Of a stretch of 24,300 nt of DNA, positions 1 to 20,500 are shown piece after piece. The translations under genes were made by a program, and so were the position numbers. How positions within the stretch are numbered: position 1 is the first letter of the stretch; each line of letters starts with the position of its first letter. The notes beneath the pieces are model-generated. The model made no database searches. It was given only the letters and a program-made list of their open reading frames with translations, and was not told the origin of the DNA. Source of the DNA: a virus; IMG/VR virus record IMGVR_UViG_3300042456_000439, positions 1-24,300 of that record; one strand, given 5' to 3'.

Positions 1-533
1 CTGAACCTATTGAAGGTTTTGAAGGTTTTATGGTAGATAAAGATGATGAGAGCAAAGGTAAGTATGCTGGTCAAATTGGTAAAGTAAAAGCTAGCCAGTA
101 TGCATATGCAGATGGTGAAACTAAAAGCGGTATCAAGATTGAAAGAGACAAGTCCTTAATGATCTTCTTGAAAACTCTATGTACTAATTTAGGTTTATCT
201 AAATGGTTTGATGAGCAAGATAACATGCATGAGACTATTGAAGATTTTGTAGCTGCATTTAACAAAACTGCTCCATTTAAGAATATCTATATGGATTTCT
301 GTATTGCCGGTAAAGAATATGTTGGTAAAACAGGTTATACAAACTATGATTTGTATTTACCAAAAGGTGATAGAGGAAGATATGCATTTGGAGATGCAGA
401 AGCAGGTAAGATCATGGTATATGATGAAGCTACTCACTTAAAAAAGACAGAAGTAAAAGAGGTTAAAAACTTTGGAGATGATGATGATTTATCAGTTCCA
501 TTTAAGACTTCAACTGATTTCAGCTTAGACTAA
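1..533 (+). CDS. Putative ssDNA-binding protein, 5'-truncated by window edge
   Basis: The reading frame is open to the left edge: nine in-frame codons (EPIEGFEGF) precede the first visible ATG at 30, so that ATG is probably internal and the gene starts outside the window. The visible part is about 176 residues. It is rich in aromatic and Lys/Gly residues, for example KYAGQIGKVKASQYAYADG and YTNYDLYLPKGDRGRYAFG. It ends in an acidic stretch (NFGDDDDLSVPF) followed by a short tail. A beta-rich body with an acidic C-terminus, next to primase and ahead of polymerase, fits the SSB slot of crAss-like replication blocks. That assignment rests on context and a general likeness to phage proteins I remember, not on a diagnostic motif. 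A strong terminator follows directly, so the gene ends a transcription unit. Confidence 0.5.
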   Translation, partial: EPIEGFEGFMVDKDDESKGKYAGQIGKVKASQYAYADGETKSGIKIERDKSLMIFLKTLCTNLGLSKWFDEQDNMHETIEDFVAAFNKTAPFKNIYMDFCIAGKEYVGKTGYTNYDLYLPKGDRGRYAFGDAEAGKIMVYDEATHLKKTEVKEVKNFGDDDDLSVPFKTSTDFSLD

Positions 534-3507: not shown

Positions 3508-3905
3508 TGAGTAAAATTAAATTTGACAAAGAAGAAACAAAGAATTTATTAAACATGCTAAAGTCTGGTGATTCTGAGAATCACACTATAGCATTTCAAG
3601 CATTGGAGAATGCTGACCTTAAAAACTATAAAGGTGAGTTGCTTGTATTGTACAAGTATGCTAAACTTAGTGCTAGTACTTGGGAGAAAGAAGCTCCTAA
3701 AGCACATAAAATACTATCAAAGCTTACTGTAAGTTTTGATAATTTAACTAGTGGTAAATGTTTGTCTATAATGACATCAGATAATGCTAGTAAAGATTCT
3801 ATAGAGTTATTTCTAGAGAATTTTGTTGTTGATATGGTTGGGTTCCTAGAACAACTAGGGTATCCGGCAGATAAGTTTAATATTAACATAGAACTAAAAG
3901 AGTAA
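3507..3905 (+). CDS. Hypothetical helical protein
   Basis: This 132-residue protein of mixed charge is mostly helical by composition (KEETKNLLNMLKSG, LVLYKYAKLSASTWEKEAPK). I recognise no family, signal peptide or membrane segment. It is coupled to both neighbours through TGATG and TAATG junctions. It lies immediately before the VWA-metallopeptidase gene, so a role with that protein and the AAA+ ATPase is possible but not shown. Confidence 0.6.
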   Translation: MSKIKFDKEETKNLLNMLKSGDSENHTIAFQALENADLKNYKGELLVLYKYAKLSASTWEKEAPKAHKILSKLTVSFDNLTSGKCLSIMTSDNASKDSIELFLENFVVDMVGFLEQLGYPADKFNINIELKE

Positions 3906-5209
3906 TGGATAAAGTTCAAAGTTTAAGTAAAACTAGTAAAGACTTAATGTTGAAAGAGCCCTATTATGGGTTCTTTCTCATTATGCTCAATAAGCTGTGG
4001 GACAAAAGAAGAGTTCCTACAGCTGGTGTAAGTAAGAATGGTATTAATTATCAGCTTACAATTAATGATGATTTCTGGGAAAGTCTAAGTGAACAACATA
4101 GACTTGGTTTGCTTAAGCATGAATTACTGCATATAGCATTTGGACATCTCACAACCTTTTTTAAGTTTTCTGATAAAAGACTGGCTAATGTTGCCATGGA
4201 TATGGAGATTAATCAATATATTGATCTTGCATGGCTCCCAGGTGGTGATATTAGTAAAGAAGATTTTGATGCAATCAAAGAAGAAATAAAAACTGAGATT
4301 GCTGCAGCAAGAGAAAGAGATGCTCCAATAGAAGAATTAAAAGCAATTGCTGATAAACTTCCTAGTAGAGGTATCATGATTGATGATTATGCTGACATGA
4401 ATCTTGATAGAAAAGCTGGTTGTAGATATTATTATGACAAGCTTAAAGAAGCTCAGGAAAAGAAAGAGAAGGATGGTACCTGTGGTGATAAGAATATGGA
4501 TAGTCTTCTTGATGATATTGAAAATGGAGATATTCCGGATCATGGTACATGGGAAGACTTTGACAATCTTACTGAAGCTGAGCAAAAGTTAATTGACAAG
4601 CAGTTACAGAAAGTATTAACTGATGCTAAAGAACAAACTGAGAAAAAGAGAGGTACTGTTCCTGGAGAGATTGAAGGGTTGATAGTTGTAGAGGAAATTG
4701 TACCACCTAAGTTTGATTGGCGGGGTTATATCAGAAGATTTACTGGTGTAAGTACTAAAGTTTTTACTAAGAAGATTAGGAGAAAAGAGAATAGAAGATT
4801 CAGTGACAATCCGGGTCTTAAGATCAAGATGAAACAACATATGTTGTTAGCCATTGACACTTCTGGTTCTGTAAGTAATGATGAACTAGTTGAATTTATG
4901 AATGAGATTCATCATATTTATAAAGCTGGTGTAGATATTACTGTAGTACAATGTGATACACATATTAGAAGTATTGAACCGTATAGAGGCAAGAATGAAA
5001 TTGCCGTCCATGGTAGAGGAGGAACTTATTTTGATCCTGTCTTAGAGTATTATAATGAGAATAGTAAAAAGTTTACTAGTCTAGTATATTTTACTGATGG
5101 TGAATGTGATGCCAATGTAAAACCTAAAGGTAATGTTCTATGGGTTTTGTCTGAAAGATCATATATGAACAACAGCCTTCCTGGAAAGGTTATCAAATTG
5201 GAGTTATGA
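3905..5209 (+). CDS. VWA-like protein with N-terminal metallopeptidase-type domain (DUF2201 type)
   Basis: This 434-residue protein has two domains. The N-terminal part holds HELLHIAFGH (72-81), an HExxH zinc motif with a third His at 81, as in the putative metallopeptidase domain paired with VWA in DUF2201 proteins. A charged middle region (about 130-260) links to a C-terminal von Willebrand A-type domain. That domain has a MIDAS motif D318-T-S-G-S (LLAIDTSGSVS), a conserved Thr in RGGTYFD (T374) and an Asp in YFTDGECD (D398). VWA proteins of this kind usually work with a MoxR-type AAA+ ATPase, and one lies one gene downstream (5376-6545). Yutin and colleagues noted such ATPase-VWA pairs in crAss-like phages. 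Together they may remodel or insert metal into a partner; the target is unknown. Confidence 0.8.
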   Translation: MDKVQSLSKTSKDLMLKEPYYGFFLIMLNKLWDKRRVPTAGVSKNGINYQLTINDDFWESLSEQHRLGLLKHELLHIAFGHLTTFFKFSDKRLANVAMDMEINQYIDLAWLPGGDISKEDFDAIKEEIKTEIAAARERDAPIEELKAIADKLPSRGIMIDDYADMNLDRKAGCRYYYDKLKEAQEKKEKDGTCGDKNMDSLLDDIENGDIPDHGTWEDFDNLTEAEQKLIDKQLQKVLTDAKEQTEKKRGTVPGEIEGLIVVEEIVPPKFDWRGYIRRFTGVSTKVFTKKIRRKENRRFSDNPGLKIKMKQHMLLAIDTSGSVSNDELVEFMNEIHHIYKAGVDITVVQCDTHIRSIEPYRGKNEIAVHGRGGTYFDPVLEYYNENSKKFTSLVYFTDGECDANVKPKGNVLWVLSERSYMNNSLPGKVIKLEL

Positions 5210-5358
5210 AAAAGTACAGTGGAAAATTAGAAACTAACTTTTATTGGATTATTCCATTCTTAGTTGGTGTAAGTAAAAGTAATGTTGATAATAAAGCTAA
5301 TGTATATGCCTTGCATATCACACCTTTATTTGAGATAGGATTAAATTGGAAATATTAA
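5206..5358 (+). CDS. Small peptide (50 aa) between VWA and AAA+ genes
   Basis: The reading frame starts with an ATGA overlap on the VWA stop codon (5206-5209) and ends at TAA 5356-5358, 17 bases before the AAA+ start. The product begins MKKYSGKLETNFYW and has one moderately hydrophobic stretch (FYWIIPFLVGV) and another near its C-terminus (LHITPLFEIGLNW). It is too short for a confident membrane call. I recognise no family. Coupling by overlap is the main evidence. Confidence 0.5.
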   Translation: MKKYSGKLETNFYWIIPFLVGVSKSNVDNKANVYALHITPLFEIGLNWKY

Positions 5359-5375
5359 TTAGTAAAAAGAAAAAC

Positions 5376-6545
5376 ATGAGTCAAGTACAATTAAATGTAG
5401 AAGAGTTAAAGAGCTTTATTAAGCATATGGTTAATAATAACCAACATATTCAAGCAGAAGGTAAGGTTCCGGTTGCTGTAAATATTGAAGGTGATGCTGG
5501 TCTTGGTAAGACTTCAGCTATCATGCAGTTGGGTAAAGAAATGAATATGCAAGTGGTAAAGCTTAATTTGTCTCAGTTAGAAGAATTAGGTGACTTAGTT
5601 GGTTTTCCTGTTAAGGAATTTGAAATACAAAATGCAGAAGGTAAAACTACCTGGATTAATGAAGCTCAGATAGATGCAGCTGTAAAGAAAGGATATAAAG
5701 TAATTGGTAAGCGCATGTCACATGCTGCTCCTGAGTGGATTCAGGGTAAAGGAGAAGGTGGTTTCTTGATTCTTGATGATTATACCAGAGCTGACCATAG
5801 ATTTATGCAAGCTACCATGGAAATCTTGGACCGTCAAGAATATGTATCATGGAAGCTTCCTAAGAACTGGCATGTAATCTTAACTACTAATCCAGACAAT
5901 GGTGACTATAATGTTACTAGTCTTGATGTAGCTCAGAAGACAAGATTTATTTCTGTTGAGTTAAAGTATGATGTGAATGTGTGGGCTAAGTGGGCTGAGA
6001 CTGCAGGAATAGATGGTAGATGTATCAATTTTATGTTGATGCACCCGGAACTTGTAACTCAAAGAATTAATCCAAGAGCAATCACTACATTCTTCAATGC
6101 AATTAGTTCTGTTCCTAAGTTTGAGGATAGCTTGCCTTTAATTCAAATGATTGGTGAGGGTTCTGTTGGTGTAGACTTTAGTTCTATGTTTACTATGTTC
6201 ATTAACAATAAGTTAGATAGAATTATTAGTCCTGAAGATACTTTGACCAAGGATGAGCAGTATGTAATGAATGCATTAACAAATGCTGTTGGTAAAGATG
6301 ATGACTTTAGAGCAGATATATCAAGTGTAATCGCAACCAGATTGATAAATTATTCATTGGTATTTGCAGAGACTAAGAGTATTCCGGCACCTATGGTTCA
6401 GAGATTAATTAAACTTACTACAGACTGTGATGCATTTACAGATGACCTTAGATATTATATGATTAAGGAGATTGTAAATGGTAACAAGACTAAGTTTGCT
6501 CAGTTGATGATGAATCAACACGTGGTAAAGATGGCTGTCAAGTAA
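5376..6545 (+). CDS. MoxR-type AAA+ ATPase
   Basis: This 389-residue ATPase has a Walker A motif GDAGLGKT (39-46), Walker B FLILDD (130-135) and a sensor-1 segment LTTNPDNGDY (about 170-179). These are arranged as in MoxR/RavA-like AAA+ proteins. A TTG in the same frame at 5346 would add ten residues, but the ATG at 5376 in an A-rich context (GAAAAACATG) is the better start. It should form a hexameric ring that drives conformational change in a substrate presented by the VWA protein encoded just upstream. It is the last gene before the 6603-6627 terminator, so it closes the 596-6545 unit. Confidence 0.85.
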   Translation: MSQVQLNVEELKSFIKHMVNNNQHIQAEGKVPVAVNIEGDAGLGKTSAIMQLGKEMNMQVVKLNLSQLEELGDLVGFPVKEFEIQNAEGKTTWINEAQIDAAVKKGYKVIGKRMSHAAPEWIQGKGEGGFLILDDYTRADHRFMQATMEILDRQEYVSWKLPKNWHVILTTNPDNGDYNVTSLDVAQKTRFISVELKYDVNVWAKWAETAGIDGRCINFMLMHPELVTQRINPRAITTFFNAISSVPKFEDSLPLIQMIGEGSVGVDFSSMFTMFINNKLDRIISPEDTLTKDEQYVMNALTNAVGKDDDFRADISSVIATRLINYSLVFAETKSIPAPMVQRLIKLTTDCDAFTDDLRYYMIKEIVNGNKTKFAQLMMNQHVVKMAVK

Positions 6546-6640: not shown

Positions 6641-7951
6641 ATGGATTTATATTTGCAAATAGAATTTGATATTGATGACTATTCTGTTGATATCAGACCT
6701 ATGGTATTGTCTAAAGATGAAATAACTCTTAATTATACAACTGAACCTTATGTTCCAAGTAAAGGAGATAAGTTTTACTTTTTGCCGGGAGTTAATATTC
6801 CAAGAATAAAACTAAAAGACTTAAGTCTTGAGCATAAAATTAAAACTGTAAGAGATATAAATGATGCTACTCATATCTTTGCTGGTAATGGTACTATGCA
6901 TAAAATGATGAGCAGACAATGGCATAACACTCTTTCTAAATCTATATTTCTAGCTTATATTGATTGCATAAAAGATCAGATGGATGATTACTATCTAGAA
7001 AAGATTAATGCTGCATTTGAGCATTATACACTAGATAAGATTATTGTAAGATTCAGTGGCTGGTACTTTAAAAATAATACATCAATTAGTCATCCTAAGT
7101 ATGCAGAAATTATGGCATGTGGGATTGCAGATAGCATGAACTATGATTCACATGCTTTTTATTCTGCTGATGAATCTTATGAAGGTGTATTAAAACAATT
7201 AGCTACTGTAACTGTGTATCCGGAAGATGCATTACTAGTACATGTAAATGGTGAAGATGCTGCAGTTATTGATGCTATTATGTTTGAGCAAATATCTGAT
7301 ATGTTCAAGAGTTCTGATAAAGACAATCATGTTCTTGCAATGGAAATTATGGCTAATTGTAACTACAAAGAAAGTTTACTTTATATAGAGCTCCTATTTA
7401 AAGATTTTGCAAATGTGATAAGTAATACACATACTAAGAACCATGTTAATTTCAAAAGTCTTATTAGCTATCTAGGTAAGAATAAAAATTACTTATATAC
7501 TGATATTGATGGTGTTATGAATTCCCTTACTGATAAAGGTGTTCTTGATATTGACAAGATTAATGTTATCATGGATAAATATCATAGTGAAATTATGAGT
7601 GGTGGTGATTCAAGATATTTCAAAGTAAAAACAGTTACTGTTAATGAAGATACTCTAGCTTTATTGAATAATAATTATACTTATGAAATACTTCAGGATT
7701 ATCAACCAGAGGTTGTTGATATCCAGGCAGAACCTGAAGAGGAAATTGAAGAGCTTGAAATAGCTGATGAAGATATGGTAGCGGCATTTACTAATCTTGA
7801 AAGAAATGAACTTAAGTCAGAGTTAATAGCATTAGAAGAAGCAAATCCTGTTTCCGAATCTGAATTAAATAACCTGGCGGAAGAACCAGAATTACTATCA
7901 AATAACCAGCAAATAGAAGAGACAAATGATACAGACTTTGATTGGTTCTGA
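6641..7951 (+). CDS. Hypothetical protein with long acidic C-terminal tail
   Basis: This 436-residue protein of unknown family has a mixed alpha/beta body of about 355 residues. After that comes a tail dominated by Glu, Asp, Leu and Asn (EPEEEIEELEIADEDM...). The tail ends in NDTDFDWF, an acidic tip with terminal aromatics like the SSB C-terminal peptide. It opens a new transcription unit after a terminator and overlaps the exonuclease gene by 26 bases. By neighbourhood it is a replication or recombination factor. The tip suggests it docks onto a protein that normally binds SSB, which is inference. Confidence 0.65.
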   Translation: MDLYLQIEFDIDDYSVDIRPMVLSKDEITLNYTTEPYVPSKGDKFYFLPGVNIPRIKLKDLSLEHKIKTVRDINDATHIFAGNGTMHKMMSRQWHNTLSKSIFLAYIDCIKDQMDDYYLEKINAAFEHYTLDKIIVRFSGWYFKNNTSISHPKYAEIMACGIADSMNYDSHAFYSADESYEGVLKQLATVTVYPEDALLVHVNGEDAAVIDAIMFEQISDMFKSSDKDNHVLAMEIMANCNYKESLLYIELLFKDFANVISNTHTKNHVNFKSLISYLGKNKNYLYTDIDGVMNSLTDKGVLDIDKINVIMDKYHSEIMSGGDSRYFKVKTVTVNEDTLALLNNNYTYEILQDYQPEVVDIQAEPEEEIEELEIADEDMVAAFTNLERNELKSELIALEEANPVSESELNNLAEEPELLSNNQQIEETNDTDFDWF

Positions 7952-8930
7952 TGAACTAGAACAGTTTTACAAGAAAAAGTTTTATTTCAGCTATAGTGGC
8001 ATTAATAAGCTTTTGTTTTCACCGGTTATGTTTTACAATCATTATGTTTTAAATCAGAGAGAGGACAGTACTGACGCGCATCTTGTAGGAGGGCGCGTCC
8101 TTCACTGTCTCTTATTTGAGCCTGACAAGTATGATGATTACTTTATATCCATGCCGGGGAAATTCCCTACTGATAGCCAAAGAAAAATAATTGACAGTAT
8201 TTTCAAATATCATTTGGTAGTTGGAAATAATACATTAACTTTGGGAGACTACTCACAAGAGATACTCACACATCTACTCACAGCAAATCTTTATCAAACA
8301 CTCAAGACAGATCAACAAAGACTTGACAAGATTCTGACACCAGAAAACATTGAGTATTTTGCTTTTCTTAAACTTAGTCTAGACAAAACAACAGTAGATC
8401 AACCTACTTTGGATGGCTGCAAGGTTGCCGTTGAAGTACTGAGAAGTAATAAAGATGTGAGAGCTTTATTACAGCTAGACAAAGATGAAGCAGATGAAAG
8501 TATCCAAGCTTACAATGAGTTGCACATTAAAGCTGAGCTTGAAGATTTACCTTTTGGTTTTCATGGTGTTCTTGATAATGTAGTTGTTGATTACAATTCA
8601 AAAACTCTATTTATCAATGACTTAAAGACACTTGGTAAATCAATACAAGACTTTCCGGACTCAGTTGAGTACTATAGATACTGGATTCAAGCAGTAATTT
8701 ACAGTATTCTTGCAAAAAGAAAGTTCAATGTTGATGATGATTGGAATATACAGATTACATTTATAGTGATTGATAAGTATAACCAAGTTTATCCTTACCA
8801 AGTTTCTTCAGAAACACTAGTTAAATGGGAAAAAGACTTTGCAGACATAATCCAGAAAGTAAAATGGCATTATGAAAACAAAAGATATGACTTACCATAT
8901 GAGCTAGCATTAGGTAATGTAAAATTGTAA
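7926..8930 (+). CDS. PD-(D/E)XK exonuclease, RecE/Cas4-like
   Basis: This 334-residue nuclease has FSYSGINKLLFSP (21-33), then GRVLHCLLFEP (56-66), the Gly-x-x-x-His and Glu helix typical of RecE-like phage exonucleases. The core follows: D217 in HGVLDNVVVD and D232-L-K234 in INDLKT form the D...D-x-K active site. The helix YYRYWIQAVIYS after it matches the conserved QxxxY helix. Expected role: 5'-3' resection of dsDNA for recombination, or host DNA breakdown. ATG 7926 is used because the TGATG at 7949-7953 opens a frame that closes at once. The first coding part contains an unusually GC-rich inverted repeat (8073-8099). Confidence 0.8.
   Translation: MIQTLIGSDELEQFYKKKFYFSYSGINKLLFSPVMFYNHYVLNQREDSTDAHLVGGRVLHCLLFEPDKYDDYFISMPGKFPTDSQRKIIDSIFKYHLVVGNNTLTLGDYSQEILTHLLTANLYQTLKTDQQRLDKILTPENIEYFAFLKLSLDKTTVDQPTLDGCKVAVEVLRSNKDVRALLQLDKDEADESIQAYNELHIKAELEDLPFGFHGVLDNVVVDYNSKTLFINDLKTLGKSIQDFPDSVEYYRYWIQAVIYSILAKRKFNVDDDWNIQITFIVIDKYNQVYPYQVSSETLVKWEKDFADIIQKVKWHYENKRYDLPYELALGNVKL
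8073..8099. repeat. GC-rich 7-bp perfect inverted repeat inside the exonuclease gene
   Basis: GACGCGC (8073-8079) and GCGCGTC (8093-8099) are exact inverted copies around a 13-base spacer. They carry four CpG dinucleotides in DNA that is otherwise AT-rich and poor in GCGC. They encode parts of the segment TDAHLVGGRVLH that leads into the conserved nuclease helix. Confidence 0.8.
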
Positions 8931-8935
8931 ATGTT

Positions 8936-9508
8936 ATGGCAATAAATGCGCTTTATAGAAAGTATTTTCAAAAGTCTAAGATATTCTTGTATCCACTCTT
9001 AGGCATTAAAAAAGGTAACATAGTACCATCTGAAACTTATTTAAGTTGGAATGATAGCTATGGTCCCGAGGATGCAAAATTAATATGTGTTTATGACTCA
9101 GATTACACAAGTACTTTTCTAAACTTTGAAGAGAATGTTTTGCTTAAGCATAACAGACTTTGTGATCATGTAAGACTAAATCCTAATCTTACAGTATGCA
9201 CATTTGATTTTTCTGATTTAAAAGATGATTGGATGTTGTTCATAGATGGCAAGTACAGCCAGATGAATGACTTAATAAAGCGCAAAATTTTAACTTATTT
9301 TGAAAAGAATAGTGGAAACTATGTTTATATACAAAGCTACTTGTATCCTAAAAAACATATGAGCAAGTATGCTGAGCTATTAGATGTGCCCATAGATTTA
9401 TTAGAATCTGTTGGGGAACTCTGTGATAAGCCTGATCTAGAAAAAGAAAAATTATTGATTGAGGTGGCAGATTTGGAAAATATTAACAATTCTAGATTAT
9501 CTTTGTAA
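8936..9508 (+). CDS. Hypothetical protein
   Basis: This 190-residue protein starts MAINALYRKYFQKSKIFLYP five bases after the exonuclease stop. An ATG at 8931 closes immediately, which fixes the start at 8936. The sequence is rich in Tyr, Leu, Lys and Asp, with segments like YLSWNDSYGPEDAKLICVYDSDY and a helical acidic end. I recognise no family, membrane segment or catalytic motif. Its place directly after the exonuclease suggests a role in DNA processing. A possible promoter for the next gene lies within its last codons. Confidence 0.6.
   Translation: MAINALYRKYFQKSKIFLYPLLGIKKGNIVPSETYLSWNDSYGPEDAKLICVYDSDYTSTFLNFEENVLLKHNRLCDHVRLNPNLTVCTFDFSDLKDDWMLFIDGKYSQMNDLIKRKILTYFEKNSGNYVYIQSYLYPKKHMSKYAELLDVPIDLLESVGELCDKPDLEKEKLLIEVADLENINNSRLSL
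9472..9505 (+). promoter_or_regulatory. Possible Bacteroidota-type promoter for the 129-aa gene
   Basis: TTTG (9472-9475) and TATCTTTG (9498-9505) match the -33 TTTG and -7 TAnnTTTG elements of Bacteroides promoters. The 22-base spacing is slightly longer than the usual about 20. A start near 9510 would leave a leader of about 15 bases before the ATG at 9526. Short AT-rich elements like these occur by chance, so this is tentative. Confidence 0.3.
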
Positions 9509-9525
9509 AATTAAAACCAATTAAA

Positions 9526-9915
9526 ATGAGTGAAAACACAATGATGCTTGTCCAGGCTACATGGAATGAAAAACAAACTTTTAGATTAATCCCTATTGCA
9601 GATGCATGTCCTTATGTAGAATGTATCTTTGATCCAGACACAAAAGTGTTTGTAATTATCTCTAAACTTTCTAAAACAACATTACATATGTTGCCTAAGT
9701 TAGATGATAATGGTGATCCAATTGCTGTTAAAAGTGCAAGACCTAACGGAAGAACTTTTAGAGAAGAGAGACACAAGATTGAAGTATTCCAAGAATTCTA
9801 TGTAGAAGATAAAACTGCTATGGAAGAAATTATCAAGTTGTTTGCATTTAATGCAAAGAAATTTGATTACAAAAAGTTCTTAGGAACTGAGAAACCTGAA
9901 GAGGCTGCTGTTTAG
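9526..9915 (+). CDS. Hypothetical protein, probably a single-gene unit
   Basis: This 129-residue soluble protein (MSENTMMLVQATWNEKQTFRL...) has alternating hydrophobic strands in its first half (PYVECIFDPDTKVFVIISKL). A basic middle (VKSARPNGRTFREERHK) and a helical C-terminal half ending KPEEAAV follow. I recognise no family. It is preceded by a possible promoter and followed within 21 bases by a strong terminator, suggesting separate and perhaps abundant expression. The stop is a double TAG TAG. Confidence 0.6.
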   Translation: MSENTMMLVQATWNEKQTFRLIPIADACPYVECIFDPDTKVFVIISKLSKTTLHMLPKLDDNGDPIAVKSARPNGRTFREERHKIEVFQEFYVEDKTAMEEIIKLFAFNAKKFDYKKFLGTEKPEEAAV

Positions 9916-9935
9916 TAGTTTTAAGTTAACCGGGA

Positions 9936-9963
9936 GGGAGGCTTTAACTAGTCTCCCTTTTTT
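9936..9963 (+). terminator. Rho-independent terminator after the 129-aa gene
   Basis: GGGAGGC (9936-9942) pairs with GTCTCCC (9951-9957), including one G-T wobble, and TTTTTT follows (9958-9963). The loop contains AACTAG and TTAACT. The latter is complementary to AGTTAA at 9924-9929 just upstream. The rest of the 90-base gap (9964-10005) shows no further structure that I can support. Confidence 0.85.
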
Positions 9964-10005
9964 ATTAATCATAACGGGGGAACAGCTTAACTGAACAAGT
10001 CTAAT

Positions 10006-10239
10006 ATGGGAGATATAGAATACGGACGTTGTGATGTATGTAGGTTAGCTGATAATCTAATTAGAACTTATTATTACTTTCCAATTAAGTGTGAATGTTG
10101 TGGGCCGGTACATCATGAATATGTAAGGCACTGTATAAACTGTACACCGGAAATGCCTGCAGAAACAAATGTACATTTAAAAACTAAAAAATTACTTGAT
10201 CCAATTCATGAAGGTTTATTTAAAAAAGTAAAAAGATGA
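10006..10239 (+). CDS. Small zinc-ribbon-like protein
   Basis: This 77-residue protein has three CxxC pairs: C9-C12, C29-C32 (with an extra C31) and C43-C46, plus H36 and H37. That is enough for one or two structural zinc sites. A basic C-terminal end (LKTKKLLDPIHEGLFKKVKR) would suit nucleic-acid contact. Its TGA overlaps the DNA polymerase ATG (ATGA at 10236-10239), so the two are translationally coupled. It may be a polymerase accessory or a transcription-type zinc ribbon; the exact family is not recognised. Confidence 0.65.
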   Translation: MGDIEYGRCDVCRLADNLIRTYYYFPIKCECCGPVHHEYVRHCINCTPEMPAETNVHLKTKKLLDPIHEGLFKKVKR

Positions 10240-12143
10240 GTAGTACTAGGACCCATTACGTCATGGATTATGAAACACTTGCCAATTGTTTTTTGGCTGT
10301 GTTTGAGGACATTAAGACTGAGCATCAAGAAGTATTTGTTATTCATGAGTCACAGAATGATATTGTACCTTTCTTAACTTTCTTAATGCAAAATATTAAT
10401 AGAGAAGAATGGCATGTTAGCTTTAATGGTTTAGGATTTGACAGTCAAATTACTCAACACTTTTTAGCTAATGGTCATCAGCTATTAGAAATGAATGGAC
10501 AAGACATTGCAAGATTTATCTATGATAAAGCACAAGATGTTATCCGGAGACAGAATGAAGGTGAGTTCTTAGAATTTAGTCCAAGAGATATTAAAATCAG
10601 ACAGGTTGATGTATTTAAACTGAATCACTGGGATAATCCAGCTAAGAGATCTAGTTTAAAGTGGATTCAGTTCAGTATGGATTGGAAGAATATCATTGAC
10701 ATGCCTATACACCACAGTACTGATGTGGTAGAAGAACAGATTCCGGAGATTATCAAATATTGTATTAATGATGTTAAGTCTACTAAACAGATTATGATGC
10801 TAAGTAAAGAGCAGATTAATCTTAGAAAAGCTTTAACAGAAGAATATAACATTGATTTATTCTCTGCATCTGAGCCAAGAATATCTAAAGAATTATTCCT
10901 GCATTTCCTGAGCAAACAAACTGGTATCAAGAAGTATGACCTTAGACAAATGAGAACTCATAGGCCTAAGATTACTGTTAATGATATCATACTACCTTAT
11001 ATAGAGTTTAAGACAGCTACATTCCAGAACCTGTTGAGAAAATTTAGAGAGGTAGAAATTTACCCGGGAGAAACTAAAGGAGGCTTTAAGTATTCTGTAC
11101 AGTATAAAGGAGTTAAAACAGATTATGGTCTTGGTGGTATTCATGGTGCCCGCAGTAGTAAGGTTTATCAATCTAATACAGACATGGTTATCATGACAAG
11201 TGATGTTACCAGTTTTTATCCTAATCTTGCTATTAGAAATAAATGGGCCCCGGGGCATTTACCAAAAGAAGAATTCTGTGCTCTGTATGAATGGTTCTTT
11301 GAAGAAAGAAAGAAGATACCAAAGAAAGATCCTAAGAATTATGTGTATAAGATCATATTGAATTCAACTTATGGTTTATCCAATGATGCTAATGCATTCC
11401 TGTATGATCCTGAATTCACTATGAGGATTACTATTAATGGTCAGCTTAGTTTAACTATGTTGTATGAGATGATTTGTGAAGAGATTCCGGGAGCTGTACC
11501 ACTAATGCAAAATACAGATGGTCTTGAGACTATGATTCCAAGAGAGTATGTAGATAAGTATATGGAGATTTGTGCCCGGTGGGAGAAGCTTACCAACTTA
11601 CAATTGGAACATGATACCTATTCTAAGATTGTACTAGGTGATGTGAATAATTATATTGCTGTTACTGAAGATGGGAAGTCAAAGTGTAAAGGTAGATTTG
11701 AGTATAAAGACTTAGCTCTTCATAAAAACAAGAGCTTCTTAATTATACCTAAAGCTCTACATGCATATTTTGTAGATGGTATTGAGCCGGAAAAGTTTCT
11801 GGCAGATAACCAAAACATATTTGACTATTGTGGAGGAGTTAAGATTAAAGGTGATTGGAAGTTTATTGACCACAGTATTGTAGATGGAGAATTTATTAAG
11901 AAAGATTTGCAACATACTATAAGGTATTTTATCTCTGAGACCGGCAGTAAGATTATTAAGACTAACCTGTTGGACGGTAGAGAAATACAAATAGAATCTG
12001 GTCCATGGATGCAGACAGTATTCATAGACTATGTAGAAAAACCATTTTCTGATTATAAGATAAATACAAAGTTCTATCTGGAAAAGATTAAGAAAGAGAT
12101 AGAAGGATTAGAACCTAATAGAAACCAATTAAGTCTATTTTAA
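10236..12143 (+). CDS. Family B DNA polymerase with 3'-5' exonuclease domain
   Basis: This 635-residue replicative polymerase is short for family B. The proofreading exonuclease is visible as Exo I MDYETL (D11, E13), Exo II FNGLGFDSQ (N64, D69) and Exo III KYCINDVK (Y175, D179). The polymerase site is visible as motif A DVTSFYPN (D323), motif B KIILNSTYG (K372, N376, Y379, G380) and motif C QNTDGLE (D428). Motif C has Asn where many family members have the first Asp of DTD, but keeps the metal-binding Asp. The last residues, NQLSLF, match the bacterial beta-clamp binding consensus QL(S/D)LF. It is coupled to the zinc-ribbon gene by ATGA and followed one base later by the DUF932-like gene. Confidence 0.9.
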   Translation: MSSTRTHYVMDYETLANCFLAVFEDIKTEHQEVFVIHESQNDIVPFLTFLMQNINREEWHVSFNGLGFDSQITQHFLANGHQLLEMNGQDIARFIYDKAQDVIRRQNEGEFLEFSPRDIKIRQVDVFKLNHWDNPAKRSSLKWIQFSMDWKNIIDMPIHHSTDVVEEQIPEIIKYCINDVKSTKQIMMLSKEQINLRKALTEEYNIDLFSASEPRISKELFLHFLSKQTGIKKYDLRQMRTHRPKITVNDIILPYIEFKTATFQNLLRKFREVEIYPGETKGGFKYSVQYKGVKTDYGLGGIHGARSSKVYQSNTDMVIMTSDVTSFYPNLAIRNKWAPGHLPKEEFCALYEWFFEERKKIPKKDPKNYVYKIILNSTYGLSNDANAFLYDPEFTMRITINGQLSLTMLYEMICEEIPGAVPLMQNTDGLETMIPREYVDKYMEICARWEKLTNLQLEHDTYSKIVLGDVNNYIAVTEDGKSKCKGRFEYKDLALHKNKSFLIIPKALHAYFVDGIEPEKFLADNQNIFDYCGGVKIKGDWKFIDHSIVDGEFIKKDLQHTIRYFISETGSKIIKTNLLDGREIQIESGPWMQTVFIDYVEKPFSDYKINTKFYLEKIKKEIEGLEPNRNQLSLF

Positions 12144-12144
12144 A

Positions 12145-13368
12145 ATGCCAAAAAGAATTCAAAACACAACAAAGGCACAACTAATAAGTGTGCCTTTACC
12201 AGTTCATGGTACTAGTTATACTGTAATTAGTCACCAATTTGTTATTGATTATGCATATCAAGCCCTAGCTAATGCAGGATTTGGAATTGTAGAAGAGGAA
12301 TACAGATGCAATGCTGATGGACAAATAGCTCAAGGAATTTATAAACTTAATTATAATAATGACCCTGAGTTGTCAATGATGTTTGCTTGGACAAACAGTT
12401 ATAATAAACAAGTAAAGTTTAAATGTGTAGTTGGTGGTTATATTAATACTTCCGGAACAGTAATGACATCCGGAGATATTGGAACATGGTCTAGAAAACA
12501 CACAGGCTCTGCTGATACTGAAACTAAAGATACTATTGATACTCAGATTAAGAATGCTCACATGTATTATGACCAACTAGTAGCTGATAAAGCTGCTATG
12601 GAGGGAATAAGCTTGAACAGAAGAAGGCAAGCACAGCTTTTGGGTATCTTATTTGCTGAATATCAGATACTTACAACAGAACAAGCTAGTGTAATTAGAC
12701 AAGAAATGGATAAGCCAAGTAATGTCTTTGCTGATACTAATAGTCTCTGGGCTTTCTATAATTATGCAACTATTGCTTTGCAGTATTCTCATCCAAGAAC
12801 ATGGATGGAGGACCAAAGAATCTTGCATTATTTTATCAATACTGTTATTGCTCAAAGTAAGCCGGCTCCTGTGGCGGTAGAAGAAGAACCGGAAGTGGAA
12901 GAGGAAGTAGCAGTAGTAGTTGATCCTTTGTATGTTGTTCCTAATCAAACTAATATCTTAGATCAGATTGCAGAAGTAGAAATGCAACTACCTGATAATC
13001 AAGTGGTGCAAGAAGAGGTAGAAATAGATACTTCTCTGCACCAGTTAGATGAAATCATTCTAGATACTAATGAAGCTGACTTAGATTCAATGATTGTACC
13101 TGAAGAACAACTTGAAGTACTTGAAGAAGAACCTGAAGATACATTTCAGCAAGATGATGTAGTTCATTATACTGATCCTGCAGGTAATACATTTGAGGCT
13201 CCAATAGTTACTGATGAATTTGCTTTGGAAGATAATCTAGAAGAAGCTAACTTTGATACATTAGAAACTGAAGAAGAAAAAGTAGAAGACAGTTTATCTG
13301 ATTTTGATTTAGATTTTGTTACTGATGATTCTGAAGAAGATGAGGATGATATTCCTGACTTCTTCTAA
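12145..13368 (+). CDS. DUF932-like protein with long acidic SSB-like tail
   Basis: This 407-residue protein has an N-terminal body (about 1-235). That part contains FVIDYAYQALANAGFGI, MMFAWTNSYNKQVKF, WSRKHTGSAD, LNRRRQAQLLGIL and LWAFYNYATIALQ. This set resembles phage DUF932 proteins, sometimes seen next to replication genes. From about residue 235 on, the chain is dominated by Glu, Asp and Val. It ends EEDEDDIPDFF, very close to the DDDIPF tip of bacterial SSB. It begins one base after the polymerase stop and is the last gene before the 13411 terminator. The DUF932 call is moderate; the tail is directly visible. It could recruit SSB-binding host proteins to the phage replisome. Confidence 0.6.
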   Translation: MPKRIQNTTKAQLISVPLPVHGTSYTVISHQFVIDYAYQALANAGFGIVEEEYRCNADGQIAQGIYKLNYNNDPELSMMFAWTNSYNKQVKFKCVVGGYINTSGTVMTSGDIGTWSRKHTGSADTETKDTIDTQIKNAHMYYDQLVADKAAMEGISLNRRRQAQLLGILFAEYQILTTEQASVIRQEMDKPSNVFADTNSLWAFYNYATIALQYSHPRTWMEDQRILHYFINTVIAQSKPAPVAVEEEPEVEEEVAVVVDPLYVVPNQTNILDQIAEVEMQLPDNQVVQEEVEIDTSLHQLDEIILDTNEADLDSMIVPEEQLEVLEEEPEDTFQQDDVVHYTDPAGNTFEAPIVTDEFALEDNLEEANFDTLETEEEKVEDSLSDFDLDFVTDDSEEDEDDIPDFF

Positions 13369-14058: not shown

Positions 14059-17000
14059 TTATTTAGCAAATGTAGACTTAAAGCTTTTAACTGCTTCATC
14101 TGGTGAGAATGTATAACCAGAGAAACCCATCAGCTTTAAGAAGTATGCCCAAGATTTGTTAGAACCTTTATCCCATACACCAGTTTGTTTTTGATAGGTT
14201 AGTTTATCTTCATCCCAAGTTAATAAAAACTGATCAAAGAACTTAACAAATCTATCTATAGTACCTGTAATAGCAGATGGTGATTTAGCAATCCTCCAGA
14301 AATCCGCAGGACTTAGATATGAAAAAGTCTCACTCCTCATTCTAATAGCTTGATACATCATAAAGTAATATGCATATGGTAAATCTTCTTTTTCTTCTCC
14401 ATCATCTCCGGTACCCATAAATTCTAATGCTAGAATAAGTGCTCCTAATGCTGCAATGATTGTAAGCTCTGCCACTACTTTTCTAATCTGTGCTTTTTCA
14501 AATGGTGAGTATGTACTCCACTGTTTAAAGATTTGAGTTTTGTATCTGTATGTATCTTTAACTAAAGTTCTTAAGAACACTCTGTACATACCTTCTGTAG
14601 CACCACCAAGTTCTTCATCAAATGAAGCTGACTTAAATCTTCTTTTTATACCTTGGTATAAGTGTTTACGGTACATTAATACAAGTCTACCTCCGGCATA
14701 TCTTTGTAACACACCTTTATCAAAGTCATTATATACACCATGCATTTTTTTATTCAGTGCATGTAATGTATTCATAAAGTCTTGTCTTTGTTTTTCATCA
14801 AAGTCTTTTCTTTCTATAGTACCATCAGCACTAGCTGCATCTATTTGTACTTTATACTCTTTTACTTTTTTCCTATTTTCATCAGTAGTCATTTCATATA
14901 GTATAGGACCATACTTTTCATGAGCTTCTAATAATGTGATTTCTTCACCTGTTTCTTTATCTATAACTTTTGTAGCATCCATTAATGCAAGCATTGTCTT
15001 TACTTGAATTTCATGTTCTGCAAAGTTTTGATTAAAGAATAAAGTATTTGTTCTAAAGAATTTGTTTGCTACACTAGCTGAAACATTTTTACCATACTCA
15101 TCTTTAAAGTTACCTTGTATAGGGTCATAATACTCAGTCAATCTACCTAACCAACTTTCAGCTTTAAGTCTTCCAAAGTCAGCCATATTATCTCCTATTG
15201 TTGCCCAGTATTTGGCTCCGCCTTTTACTAAGTTTTTTCCATTAAAGTATTCACCACCGGCTGCTTCAATTGCAACCTGGATATTACCTTGAATGTTATT
15301 AGCTGTACCTTTAAGTATATCCATAGAAAGTGTAGTAACTGCTGATATACCCATAGCAGTATTTACAATCTTTGATAACTCAAGGCCCCAGATTTTTTCT
15401 GCTTTCTGTGATTCTCCTTGTACAACCATTTCTAAAAATGCTTCCAAGTGCATCTTAGAATAAGAAGTACCATTTGATTTTATATATTCATCAAATCCTA
15501 GTTTTTTAGCAGCAATGTTTAAGATAGATTCACCGGAAGCTGTTGTTACAGCAGTTTCTCTTTCACCAATTATACTTCTGAAAGCTGTGATTTCTGCATG
15601 AATTTCATTCATAGCATTATATCTTCTAGCCATTGAACCAAATTGTAATACAGATTTAATTAAATCTACACTAACATCATCAGCATCCATTGGTTGTGTA
15701 TAATATACAGGTAGCATGGTCATCTTTTCACCAGATAAACTTGCTCTACCATATGGTCTAGTGTCTATTTCATTACCTTCACTGCTAAGATTAGCACCAT
15801 ATAATGCTTGGTCATAGCTTTGAATTGATACTGATTCTTTTAAGTTTGTTTTAACTAAGTTACCAGCTCCTTTTCTATATAACCTTTCATAGTCTTCCAT
15901 AGGAATAGAAGGAAGAATATACCCCATTCTTTGAGACTCAGGTAATAATTCTTGATCTTTTAAGTATATGTCTGTCAGATACTTATGATATTCTCCTTCT
16001 GGTGATATTGGTTGACCTTCTTCATTGTATAGTTTCAACCATTTTTTATTTATGTACTTATCTGATGGTTCTGTTAACTCACCATAAAATGTTTTGACAC
16101 CTGTTTTTTTATCAACATATTCTACTTTTGAAAGCCATTCTTCATATTCTTCATTAGTAATGATACCTTTATTTAACTCATCCCGTTTATTATTTGTTAT
16201 TTTTTGAATTTCTTCAGTAGATTTTGGTTGTCTGTTTTGTTTATACCACTGGTTTCTTTTTATCTTCCATTCCTTTAATCTAGCTTCATACTCTAATACT
16301 TCTTCTGCAGGAGAGTCAGGAGTAATTTTTGGTTTTGGATTTGTTTTGTAAAATGCTTGTTCTGCATCTTTATATAAATTAAGATCATACTTTTGTACAA
16401 AAGACATCTTTTTATCAAAGACAAGTTCACCATTTTCTTTTACAGGCTTCCCTTTAATATCTCTTCTTAATACAGAAATTTCTTCATAAAGACCTGCATT
16501 AAATTCTGCAATATTGTTAATGCTTCTTCCGGATTTATCTCTAAATTCTTTAAGTTTTTCTACAGCTTCATCTCTCTCAGCTATATCTTCCATTCTGGAT
16601 CCTTCAAACTGAGACTTAACCATCTTAGCAAATAAAGCTAGAGCACTGTCTTCTGAACTTATTAATGGGTTGAGTAAGTAATCAAAGACACCTTCATCCT
16701 TTAATGACATTTTAAGAATGTTTTCCATTCTCTCTTTGTCAATAAGCATGTTTTGCCATTTGGTTAATTCTTTTTGAGCTGCATTAATGTCACTTGCTTT
16801 TGCAGCATCAGATAGTTCAGAAGCTCTAATTTTTTGAATTCTTTCTTGATAGGTTTTGATCTGTTCATTTATAGTACCTACATTTCTTGTATTTCTTTGG
16901 GCTACTAATACTTCAGCTAATAATGGAGTGATCTCATTTATGTAAGCTGTTCTAATAAAGTTTCTAATTTCAAGTGCTGTAGTTAATTTATCTTGTGGAG

Positions 17001-17559
17001 TATACTCAGACAAGCTTTTTCTTTCTACAGGTTTTCCAAAGTATTCTATAGCATCTGACTTTGATATTTCATCTAGTATAGAATAGTTATTAGCAAAGTC
17101 ATTAATGTTTACCAGACCTTCTAAAAAATCTTTGTTATTTATTTTACCATCTTTAAAATCAGCTACTAAGCTTTTAAAATATTTTTTAGCACCAAGAGCT
17201 TTTTCAAATGAATCTTCTATAAATAGATTTATAGACTCAACACCATTTAGTTCATTAACCATCTTAGTTAATCTAGCTAATTGGGCTTCTTGCTCTCTTT
17301 GGTTTTTAAGTTTTTTTCTACTAAGCTCATACTTCTTTTCTTCCAAGAATACTTTTACTTTTTGCAAAGCTTCAGCAAAGTCTTTAGGAGCTTCTTCTGC
17401 AGGAATATTTGGATTATCTTGAAGTAATTCTTCAAACTCATCATCTTGTTCTTTTACTAATTTGTTCCATTCTTCCAGTGCACGTTCTTCATTGCCATTT
17501 TCTTGGGCAAGAAGTTTTTTCCATTCTTCACTGTTTTTATTTGGGCAACTTCCTAACAT
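14059..17559 (-). CDS. Large virion-associated or ejected protein, unassigned
   Basis: This 1166-residue protein lies directly downstream of the virion RNA polymerase gene; its ATG overlaps that gene's TAG stop by 7 bases (17553-17559). It begins MLGSCPNKNSEEWKKLL, a Cys-Pro-Asn-Lys-Asn opening I associate with large multidomain phage proteins. Residues about 10-450 are highly charged and helical, likely partly coiled coil. The middle contains alternating polar segments without a catalytic motif I can name. One hydrophobic segment lies near residues 1028-1048 (VAELTIIAALGALILALEFMG), followed by an acidic patch and an aromatic-rich C-terminus. Size, place and strand fit the large cargo or ejection proteins carried with the polymerase in crAss-like virions. 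The single membrane segment could help cross the host envelope, which is inference. Confidence 0.6.
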   Translation of the reverse strand: MLGSCPNKNSEEWKKLLAQENGNEERALEEWNKLVKEQDDEFEELLQDNPNIPAEEAPKDFAEALQKVKVFLEEKKYELSRKKLKNQREQEAQLARLTKMVNELNGVESINLFIEDSFEKALGAKKYFKSLVADFKDGKINNKDFLEGLVNINDFANNYSILDEISKSDAIEYFGKPVERKSLSEYTPQDKLTTALEIRNFIRTAYINEITPLLAEVLVAQRNTRNVGTINEQIKTYQERIQKIRASELSDAAKASDINAAQKELTKWQNMLIDKERMENILKMSLKDEGVFDYLLNPLISSEDSALALFAKMVKSQFEGSRMEDIAERDEAVEKLKEFRDKSGRSINNIAEFNAGLYEEISVLRRDIKGKPVKENGELVFDKKMSFVQKYDLNLYKDAEQAFYKTNPKPKITPDSPAEEVLEYEARLKEWKIKRNQWYKQNRQPKSTEEIQKITNNKRDELNKGIITNEEYEEWLSKVEYVDKKTGVKTFYGELTEPSDKYINKKWLKLYNEEGQPISPEGEYHKYLTDIYLKDQELLPESQRMGYILPSIPMEDYERLYRKGAGNLVKTNLKESVSIQSYDQALYGANLSSEGNEIDTRPYGRASLSGEKMTMLPVYYTQPMDADDVSVDLIKSVLQFGSMARRYNAMNEIHAEITAFRSIIGERETAVTTASGESILNIAAKKLGFDEYIKSNGTSYSKMHLEAFLEMVVQGESQKAEKIWGLELSKIVNTAMGISAVTTLSMDILKGTANNIQGNIQVAIEAAGGEYFNGKNLVKGGAKYWATIGDNMADFGRLKAESWLGRLTEYYDPIQGNFKDEYGKNVSASVANKFFRTNTLFFNQNFAEHEIQVKTMLALMDATKVIDKETGEEITLLEAHEKYGPILYEMTTDENRKKVKEYKVQIDAASADGTIERKDFDEKQRQDFMNTLHALNKKMHGVYNDFDKGVLQRYAGGRLVLMYRKHLYQGIKRRFKSASFDEELGGATEGMYRVFLRTLVKDTYRYKTQIFKQWSTYSPFEKAQIRKVVAELTIIAALGALILALEFMGTGDDGEEKEDLPYAYYFMMYQAIRMRSETFSYLSPADFWRIAKSPSAITGTIDRFVKFFDQFLLTWDEDKLTYQKQTGVWDKGSNKSWAYFLKLMGFSGYTFSPDEAVKSFKSTFAK

Positions 17560-20500
17560 AGCTTATCAAGTATTTTTGTTATTTTGTTATAGTCTTCTTG
17601 GGTTTTTGCTTCTGCTAAATTATTGATTATATCAACAATATCATAACCTCTTTCTGCTAATTGTTCTTCTATATTAGTAGTAGCTCTTAGAGTGATGAGT
17701 CTATCAAGGGCTTTATCAATTACTTCAGGATCCACAGGTGCATCAAGACCTGGTTCAGTTTCCTGTTTACCAGTCTCCATATTAATGTTTCTCAAGTATA
17801 TTTCACCGGTTGTGGCATCTACTAAATCATAGTTACCAAACTTATTTAGTCTATACATTCTATTCTCTGAAGTAAATGTCTGAGGTTGAACACCATTGTT
17901 TTTAGCAACTAGATCATTGTATACATTCATGTCTGTATCAATTGTAGCTTCAGGTTTTGGGCTTATAGATGTTTCAGTAGATTGAGTAAATCTTTGGTAC
18001 CCAGTTCTTCCAACTTCAATATAGTTACCTTTTTCAATAGCATCATAAGATAATCCTACTTCTCCTGATCCTCTATCTGTAAAATCAGCTTCTTCTATAG
18101 GTATTAAATATGCATATACAGTAGGATTATTTTCCCCATAGTTTATAGCATAATATGAAGCTTCTTTAATTGCTCTATTATAGTCAAATAAATCATCTCC
18201 TTCTTCATTTGTATAAAATAACATTTGACCTTCATATCTTGCACCCATTGACTCTGCTATTCTTCTAGCATTTTCATTTCTAAATTCACCTGTATATTGT
18301 TTAGATCTATTAGGTTTATCAAATTTTTGACCTCCATGAAAACCTAAAATATATTTTTCACCATCTTTATTTACCTTTTTTAATTCTTCTAAACTATTAT
18401 TTAATAACTGCTGTAGATTTTTTTCAAACTCTTCTTTAGGAATTGATGTTGTAACTTCACCAGGTTGAGTAGATGGTTGTGTAAATCTTTTTAATGCTGT
18501 TTCAAGATCATTTATATATAGTTTACTTCTTCTGATAGTATCAGGATTACCATATTTATCAGCTCCTATTTGTAATTGTTCTTTCTGCCTAGAAATCTCT
18601 TTAACTAACTCATCTTTAGCAAAAGGTTTTAAATATTTTTCTACACCAGACTTTAACTCTTCAGAATAAGTTTCATTATATATTTTATTCACTTCATCTA
18701 TTGTTAAAAGAATTGGTGCATTAGCAGTATCCTTATAATCTATTGTTCTATAAGGACTTTGCCAAATATAATTATCTATAATTTGAAAGTCAGTAATTTT
18801 TGGTTTAGGAGCTGTATATAAGTTAATTAAAAAGTCTACAAACTCTTTTGGTAAATTTTCATTTATAAAGGCATCTATTTCTGATCTTCTTAGATTTCTT
18901 TTTGTTTCAGGGTTTGTTACTTGCTTATATAAATTTGAATTAGTGTCATACTTATAAAGATTAAATGCTACATTTTTATCTAAGTCTTTTTTTGGTGTTA
19001 TCATAAATTCTGAATCACCAACTGTAAATACAGCACTACCATAATCAAGACCAGTTTTAATTTCTTTTACATTATTTATTTCAGCCGGTTTTGTATAAAC
19101 TTTAGCTTCAGATGGTTCAGTAGATGGTTGTTTCCAGTTATATTTATTAATTAAATAATCTAAAGCTGAAGCATGTGAAGGCTCTCCTAATTCAGCATAA
19201 TACTGAAGTTGTCTTCCTTTTAATTTGCCAGATTTTAAAATATCTAAAATAAAAGCTCTTCTTTCTGGTTTAACATTTATAAATTTATCTGTAGTAAGCC
19301 AATCAATGTAATTTAAAACAGCTTCTTTTGTAGAATTTGTTTTAATTGTTCCTGTTCTATTAAAACTAGCCCAAGGATTTGAGAAGCTTTTTACATCACT
19401 ATCTACTTCCATAGTGTATACTCTACCTTTATCTTTTGCTTCTTTTACATTAGCATCCCTGTCATACTTACCATCTTTAGTTTTTATATTAGAAATGACA
19501 ATATTTGGAGACAAAGTTTTATTACCTAATTGAGAATATATTGTTTCAAAATCTTGAGTAGATGGTTGAGTAGGAGCTTGAGAAGCAGTGTTTTTATAAA
19601 CATCTCTGATAGCTTGTTTACCAGCTTCATTTATTTCTCTAGTACCAACACCAGCAAATTTCTTTGTTAAAACAGGAGTATCAGTTTGATCAAATCTACC
19701 TTTCTGTCCTGGTATATCTGAGTCTACAAGTCCTTCTGGATTATACTTCATCCAAACATTATAATTTAGATCAAATACATATACTGGTTTACCAAGATTA
19801 ATGGCCATTTGTACAGCATATCCAGTACCACCATCAACTTGAAGAGCTTTTACTTTATAACCTTTGCTATTAGTATCACCTTCTTCTAAAATTTTACCCA
19901 CTGCAAATACTGCATCTGCTGCTTTAGCTTGAAGATAATCTCTTCTTACTAGTCCACCTGAATAATAAATACTTTTTCCTTCCGCATTTTTAGCATTAGG
20001 ATTATTCCAATCATATGTTAATGGTTTTCTTCCTAAATCACTAGCAGCTTTTTGATATGCATCTTCAACTTCTTTAATTTGTTCAGGAGTGAGTTTTTGT
20101 AAAGTCTGTGGTTTATAATCTACTTGTTTTCCTATTCCAAATTCTTTACCTATTTCAGCCCATGCTGTATCACTACCTATTGCTCCACCGGAATAGTTTG
20201 TATATTCTGGTAACTGATTAGTAGGTTCTGTAGGTTGAACATCTTCTTTCTTAGTGATATGCATACCTGTTGCAAGGTTTACATTCTCATAGTAGTACTC
20301 ACCGGTCTCTTGATCCAGCATGTCATATGTACCATATTGATTTTTAATCCATATAGCACTTTGCGGCATACCTTGTCTCTTACCGGTAGCGGAGTTATAG
20401 AATGCAGGGAATAAAGTTTTAGATGTAAAGAATCTTTCAGGTCTTTTGCCTCCAAGTTTTTTAACCATTTGGTTAAATAAATCTACATCTTCCTGGTTTA

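Follow-up and report, generated by a model that had tools for sequence, protein, structure and literature searches.

Two unrelated proteins from the replication block of an apparently crAss-like phage end in conserved acidic-aromatic tips, and we put the chances at about even that these tips are C-terminal docking motifs tethering phage replication proteins to replication hubs. The 24.3 kb stretch of DNA analysed here (the window) comes from the IMG/VR record IMGVR_UViG_3300042456_000439 (positions 1 to 24,300) and takes in the replication block together with a portion of the large transcription-type proteins. P436, encoded at 6641..7951 on the + strand, has 436 residues and ends in ...EETNDTDFDWF. 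P407 (12145..13368, +) has 407 residues and a C-terminus reading ...DSEEDEDDIPDFF, with EEDEDDIPDFF as its last residues. A first-pass annotation of this DNA had proposed that two unrelated proteins carry such tips on long acidic tails. The reading frames and their ends confirmed this, and profile-profile comparison of the two bodies gave a probability of only 0.1%.

Conserved tips on variable acidic tails

Tip counts were taken from dereplicated relatives of P436 (n = 91), P407 (n = 81), the single-stranded DNA-binding protein (SSB)-like protein at the left edge of the window (n = 49) and the family B DNA polymerase PolB (n = 56). The relatives in all counts are correlated by descent. At the P436 tip (DFDWF; 7934..7948, +), 80/91 relatives end in WF and 86/91 in the wider pattern Phi-x-W-x(1,2). 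At the P407 tip (IPDFF; 13351..13365, +), 62 of the 81 relatives end in FF and 6 in FxF, with PDFF in 42 and some F/L-aromatic variant in 80. The expectation that the tips are kept in relatives, rather than absent or variable there, thus held (WF in 80/91 for P436; FF or FxF in 68/81 for P407). In both families mean entropy was approximately 3.1 bits over the 30 positions before the tip, compared with 0.6-0.8 in the last two. The last 60 residues carried a median net negative charge of 15 in P436 and 19 in P407. Among the 612 open reading frames (ORFs) of five near-complete relatives of 113-123 kb, ten end in [FW]xF or [FW]F, and nine of these ten are P436 or P407. The presence of such tips on both proteins is far from chance.

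AlphaFold predicted P436 with a confidence (pLDDT) of 81.8, most of the body (approximately residues 1-350; a possible BRCT-like part plus helices) lying at 90+ and the acidic disordered tail below 50. No family could be assigned to P436, and profile searches of PDB sequences gave nothing convincing for it. P407 was likewise modelled with a confident body and a long, acidic, disordered tail that holds a short conserved hairpin. Profile matches in relatives and the predicted fold identify the P407 body (approximately residues 1-240) as DUF932: PF06067 was matched by 29 of 55 relatives (best E 8.6e-9), the window copy itself falling below threshold, and the P407 model matched DUF932/TIGR03299 models in BFVD with E down to 8.6e-10. 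The P407 profile found nothing convincing among PDB sequences, Foldseek against the PDB returned no fold for either body, and neither protein had a match in annotated phages. A second look (VIA) gave a weak, BRCT-like result of middling Z for P436 (5.6) and a middling Z for P407 (7.7); neither is used as a claim. In the open-licence literature we found no description of tips of the P436 or P407 type.

The DUF932 proteins of Bacteroidota genomes share the P407 body but end without the acidic tail and without the tip, which makes the P407 tail an addition. Most P407 proteins of the sister clade end in DTFEEFKI and have no long tail. Our alignment-based searches for distant relatives cover the best 80 matches, mostly near ones; queries with outgroup sequences reached distant relatives for P407 but not for P436.

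Both tails also hold conserved segments of their own. In many relatives the P436 tail has a second conserved segment, ELKSELIALEE, possibly another binding helix. The P407 tail has two such islands: DPNQTNxLDQIAE forms a helix, and YTDPxGNTFEAPIV a hairpin with a pLDDT of approximately 85.

Selection on the tip codons

The Phe codons of the P407 tip are mixed (54 TTC and 37 TTT at one position, 53 and 40 at the other), and in 187 of 192 loci no ORF overlaps them. The mixture of TTC and TTT indicates that selection acts on the protein.

The P436 tip lies in a different setting. Its last nine codons overlap the start of an exonuclease ORF (start 7926; overlap 7926..7951, +), which is read in the +1 frame. 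The overlap is found in nearly all relatives ending in WF, as would be expected if the tip simply followed from the DNA constraint that the exonuclease start imposes. Within the overlap, however, the exonuclease is frozen at its own wobble positions. The exonuclease-frame Gly is GGT in 105/105 overlapping sequences, compared with 527/1070 (49%) elsewhere in the same genes, and the exonuclease-frame Leu is TTG in all 105, whilst variation returns at the wobble positions immediately downstream. Among the frozen bases are those that open the P436 Trp, Phe and stop codons, a pattern expected only if the P436 Trp and Phe are also under selection. In addition, three relatives that do not have the overlap still keep EF[NR]W[IV]E. 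A by-product origin is thus very improbable. The codon pattern shows that the P436 tip is selected in its own right and that both frames are constrained at once. An RNA-level element in the overlap is a residual possibility.

Relation to the host SSB tip

The C-terminal tip of bacterial SSB (SSB-Ct) is DFDDDIPF in E. coli. Among the Bacteroidota SSB reading frames we sampled, 73/78 end in PF, mostly as DDLPF. P436 and P407 share with SSB-Ct an acidic run and an aromatic end after a variable, disordered linker. Phe is the C-terminal residue in most relatives, but some P407 proteins end in DFDFA or DFDFN and some P436 proteins in WIE or WVE. The bodies are not those of SSB, and within the window clade the tips are WF or DFF instead of PF: only 1/91 P436 relatives ends in PF, and LPF or IPF was found in 0/81 P407 relatives. 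The description of the tips as SSB-like in the first-pass annotation is therefore not literally right for the window clade itself. It fits better further afield, where four distant P436 orthologues or positional equivalents end in LPF. The distant orthologue L609 (profile probability 99.2%, E 9e-20) ends in HHTDDLPF, exactly the host DDLPF; of the other distant orthologues, L592 ends in YALPF and L077 in NILPF, while in L598 the P436 position holds a partial protein with the end NDLPF. An end made of a hydrophobic residue followed by PF is rare in the 50 sister-clade loci: just four ORFs have it, and three of the four are proteins in the P436 position.

A second carrier was found in gut crAss phages. 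The hypothetical protein gp34 (YP_010112564.1 family; cr4_1 copy at L381:12887-13492) ends in LPF in 11/11 members and is a possible phage SSB. Its gene sits between the Sak4-like gene and the primase gene, the position of the SSB-like gene in the window. We detected no homology between the gp34 family and either P436 or the SSB-like protein of the window, so the equivalence of gp34 and the SSB-like protein is positional only. Taken together, the LPF ends of P436-type proteins and of gp34 show that crAss-like phages place the host SSB tip on proteins of their own replication region, with P436 as one carrier. The suggestion that the SSB tip has moved between phage proteins gains real support from the same ends.

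The left-edge SSB-like protein had been noted as lacking the SSB tip, and it does lack it. It is not tipless, however. Its ORF is cut by the window edge, leaving the C-terminal part (1..533, +), and it ends in a tip of its own, DFSLD (516-530, +), conserved as DF[SN]LD in 46/49 relatives. The complete gene, encoding 227 residues, is carried by contig L001, which has 100% identity to P436. No profile match to the SSB OB-fold (PF00436) was found in 20 long relatives, although the controls gave matches, and the protein had no match in Pfam, PHROG or PDB sequence searches. An SSB identity for it is putative.

A proposed docking role for the tips

Distant P436 versions carry the exact host SSB tip, so the tips probably serve to link the phage machinery with a partner in replication. 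The folded bodies of P436 and P407 would sit at a phage replication or recombination complex, each with a flexible acidic linker, free in sequence and length, that bears a terminal aromatic plug. The docking site of this plug would be a pocket, hydrophobic inside and basic around it, on a hub protein of replication. For P436 the pocket that recognises the tips of host SSB would be the most likely site, since its distant orthologues carry LPF or DDLPF; the P436 tip probably derives from the SSB tip or is its equivalent. The P407 tip may bind a host SSB partner, a clamp or a phage-internal protein. Together with QLSLF at the C-terminus of PolB, which would bind the host beta clamp, the two tips would make up a group of tethers. 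Both tips are attached to conserved bodies encoded in the replication block, so recruitment of the partners is more plausible than their titration, for which we found no support. We infer docking, the identity of the partners and any effect of the tips on replication.

Phage T4 offers a precedent. Its gp43, gp55 and gp33 bind the clamp gp45 via similar short C-terminal motifs, and the linker of gp55 is highly divergent (PMC2988020). There too, several proteins of one phage bear acidic-hydrophobic C-terminal plugs on variable linkers.

Several points weigh against this docking reading. The Pro-Phe tip of the host SSB differs from the WF and DFF tips of the window clade. The LPF ends of P436-type proteins come from four distant sequences, one of them partial, and many other sister-clade P436 proteins have no tip. 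The tip is also lost in several P436 lineages (ending in EHIE, EEVEV or HTESHRL) and hence is not universal. Some P407 relatives carry a residue beyond the last Phe (DFDFA, DFDFN). Known pockets for SSB tips enclose the C-terminal Phe and make contact with its carboxylate (PMC10164576), and the additional residue argues against strict SSB-Ct docking in those P407 proteins.

A wider reading, which we offer tentatively, is that the host SSB tip is a mobile recruitment tag in crAss-like phages. It would be carried by gp34 in gut phages and by P436 in the sister lineage, and would have diverged in the window clade into new tip classes on P436 and on a DUF932 protein with an acquired acidic tail. 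DUF932 would then act as a hub in replication, collecting host factors next to a PolB held on the host clamp.

CrAss-like phages are among the most abundant gut phages, and DUF932 is a common family of unknown function. Little is known of how the polymerase and accessory proteins of crAss-like phages are coupled to the replication of the host. The tips offer an initial way into the function of both the P436 family and DUF932, and they yield a few candidate docking peptides that can be tested: LPF, D[FIL][DE]WF, PDFF, DFSLD and QLxLF.

Alternative partners and roles

The tips could instead dock within the phage machinery, on the phage primase, helicase, Sak4-like protein or exonuclease. A model for this is T7 gp2.5, whose acidic tail acts within its own replisome. 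All the genes concerned belong to a single conserved replication block, and a change of tip type from clade to clade is what coevolving phage partners would be expected to show. The LPF of distant P436 orthologues is identical to that of host SSB, which for those proteins, if not for others, indicates a host pocket. We regard phage-internal docking as possible but rather doubtful.

Binding of P436 and P407 to a sliding clamp, be it the beta clamp of the host or a phage clamp that escaped detection, was considered next, and here PolB is informative. Its gene (10236..12143, +; PHROG 1252, E 1.2e-141) lies between those of P436 and P407, and the protein ends in QLSLF (12126..12140, +), a motif that the first-pass annotation had missed. 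This matches the published beta-clamp consensus, and the motif of E. coli Pol II is also in its C-terminal tail (PMC11139829). Q..LF is present in 56/56 PolB relatives and in nearly all sister-clade sequences; four gut crAss PolBs have a variant form, and the PolBs sampled from other phages do not have it. A DnaN domain was looked for in 20 long relatives and gave no match. A search for T4-type clamps was uninformative, as no control genome gave a match. The motif and the apparent lack of a phage clamp suggest that PolB most likely uses the host beta clamp.

The clamp motif of PolB favours clamp binding by P436 and P407, and so do the T4 clamp-binding tips (gp43, gp55 and gp33: SLDFLFG, SLDFLYEAND and TLDFLL), which are nearer to DFDWF than to DDIPF. 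The likeness is loose, however. Neither window tip has the [ST]LDFL core of the T4 motif, and T4 encodes its own clamp whereas none was detected in relatives of the window phage. Nor do DFDWF and IPDFF have the Gln-led QLxLF consensus of E. coli Pol II-type tips (QL[SD]LF): they are without both the Leu pattern and the Gln, which is important for beta binding. In Pol III alpha, the clamp motif is weakened when its last Phe is changed to Trp (PMC11139829), which also counts against this reading. QLxLF is also constant in PolB while the P436 and P407 tips differ by clade, and the LPF of P436 orthologues suits SSB and not the clamp. We consider clamp binding by these tips unlikely.

Finally, that the tips are protease recognition tags setting protein lifetime is highly improbable: ClpXP does degrade LPF-ending proteins, including SSBs, in some Streptococcus mutans strains, but this recognition is strain-limited, failed in other streptococci tested and was impaired when LPF was altered (PMC5143411), whereas the window tips are WF and FF.

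The phage and its genomic context

The window phage is crAss-like judging by its terminase large subunit (TerL) relatives and the order of its replication block. TerL of a close relative (G005) matched 128 phage records at approximately 24% identity, mostly Bacteroidota phages and crAss phages, including Flavobacterium, Bacteroides, Cellulophaga and uncultured crAss phages. The block of G005 reads DnaB, X, Sak4-like, SSB-like, primase, the same order as in gut crAss phage cr4_1. Because the TerL matches are distant, order-level membership is not certain. From these TerL relatives and the shared block order we infer a Bacteroidota host.

Other features of the block were also noted. At 3905-6545 the gene for a metallopeptidase/VWA protein (DUF2201) precedes that for a MoxR-like AAA ATPase, a pair kept in the block. 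On the - strand, 17553-24224 encodes a protein of 2223 residues with a GSDFDGD motif of RNA-polymerase type; a separate region of this protein matches proteins that are annotated as DprA-like in crAss phages and as RNA polymerase in N4-like phages. In L078, the AAA and PolB genes (7349-9609 and 14117-17166) are split by inserted ORFs that resemble mobile introns or homing endonucleases.
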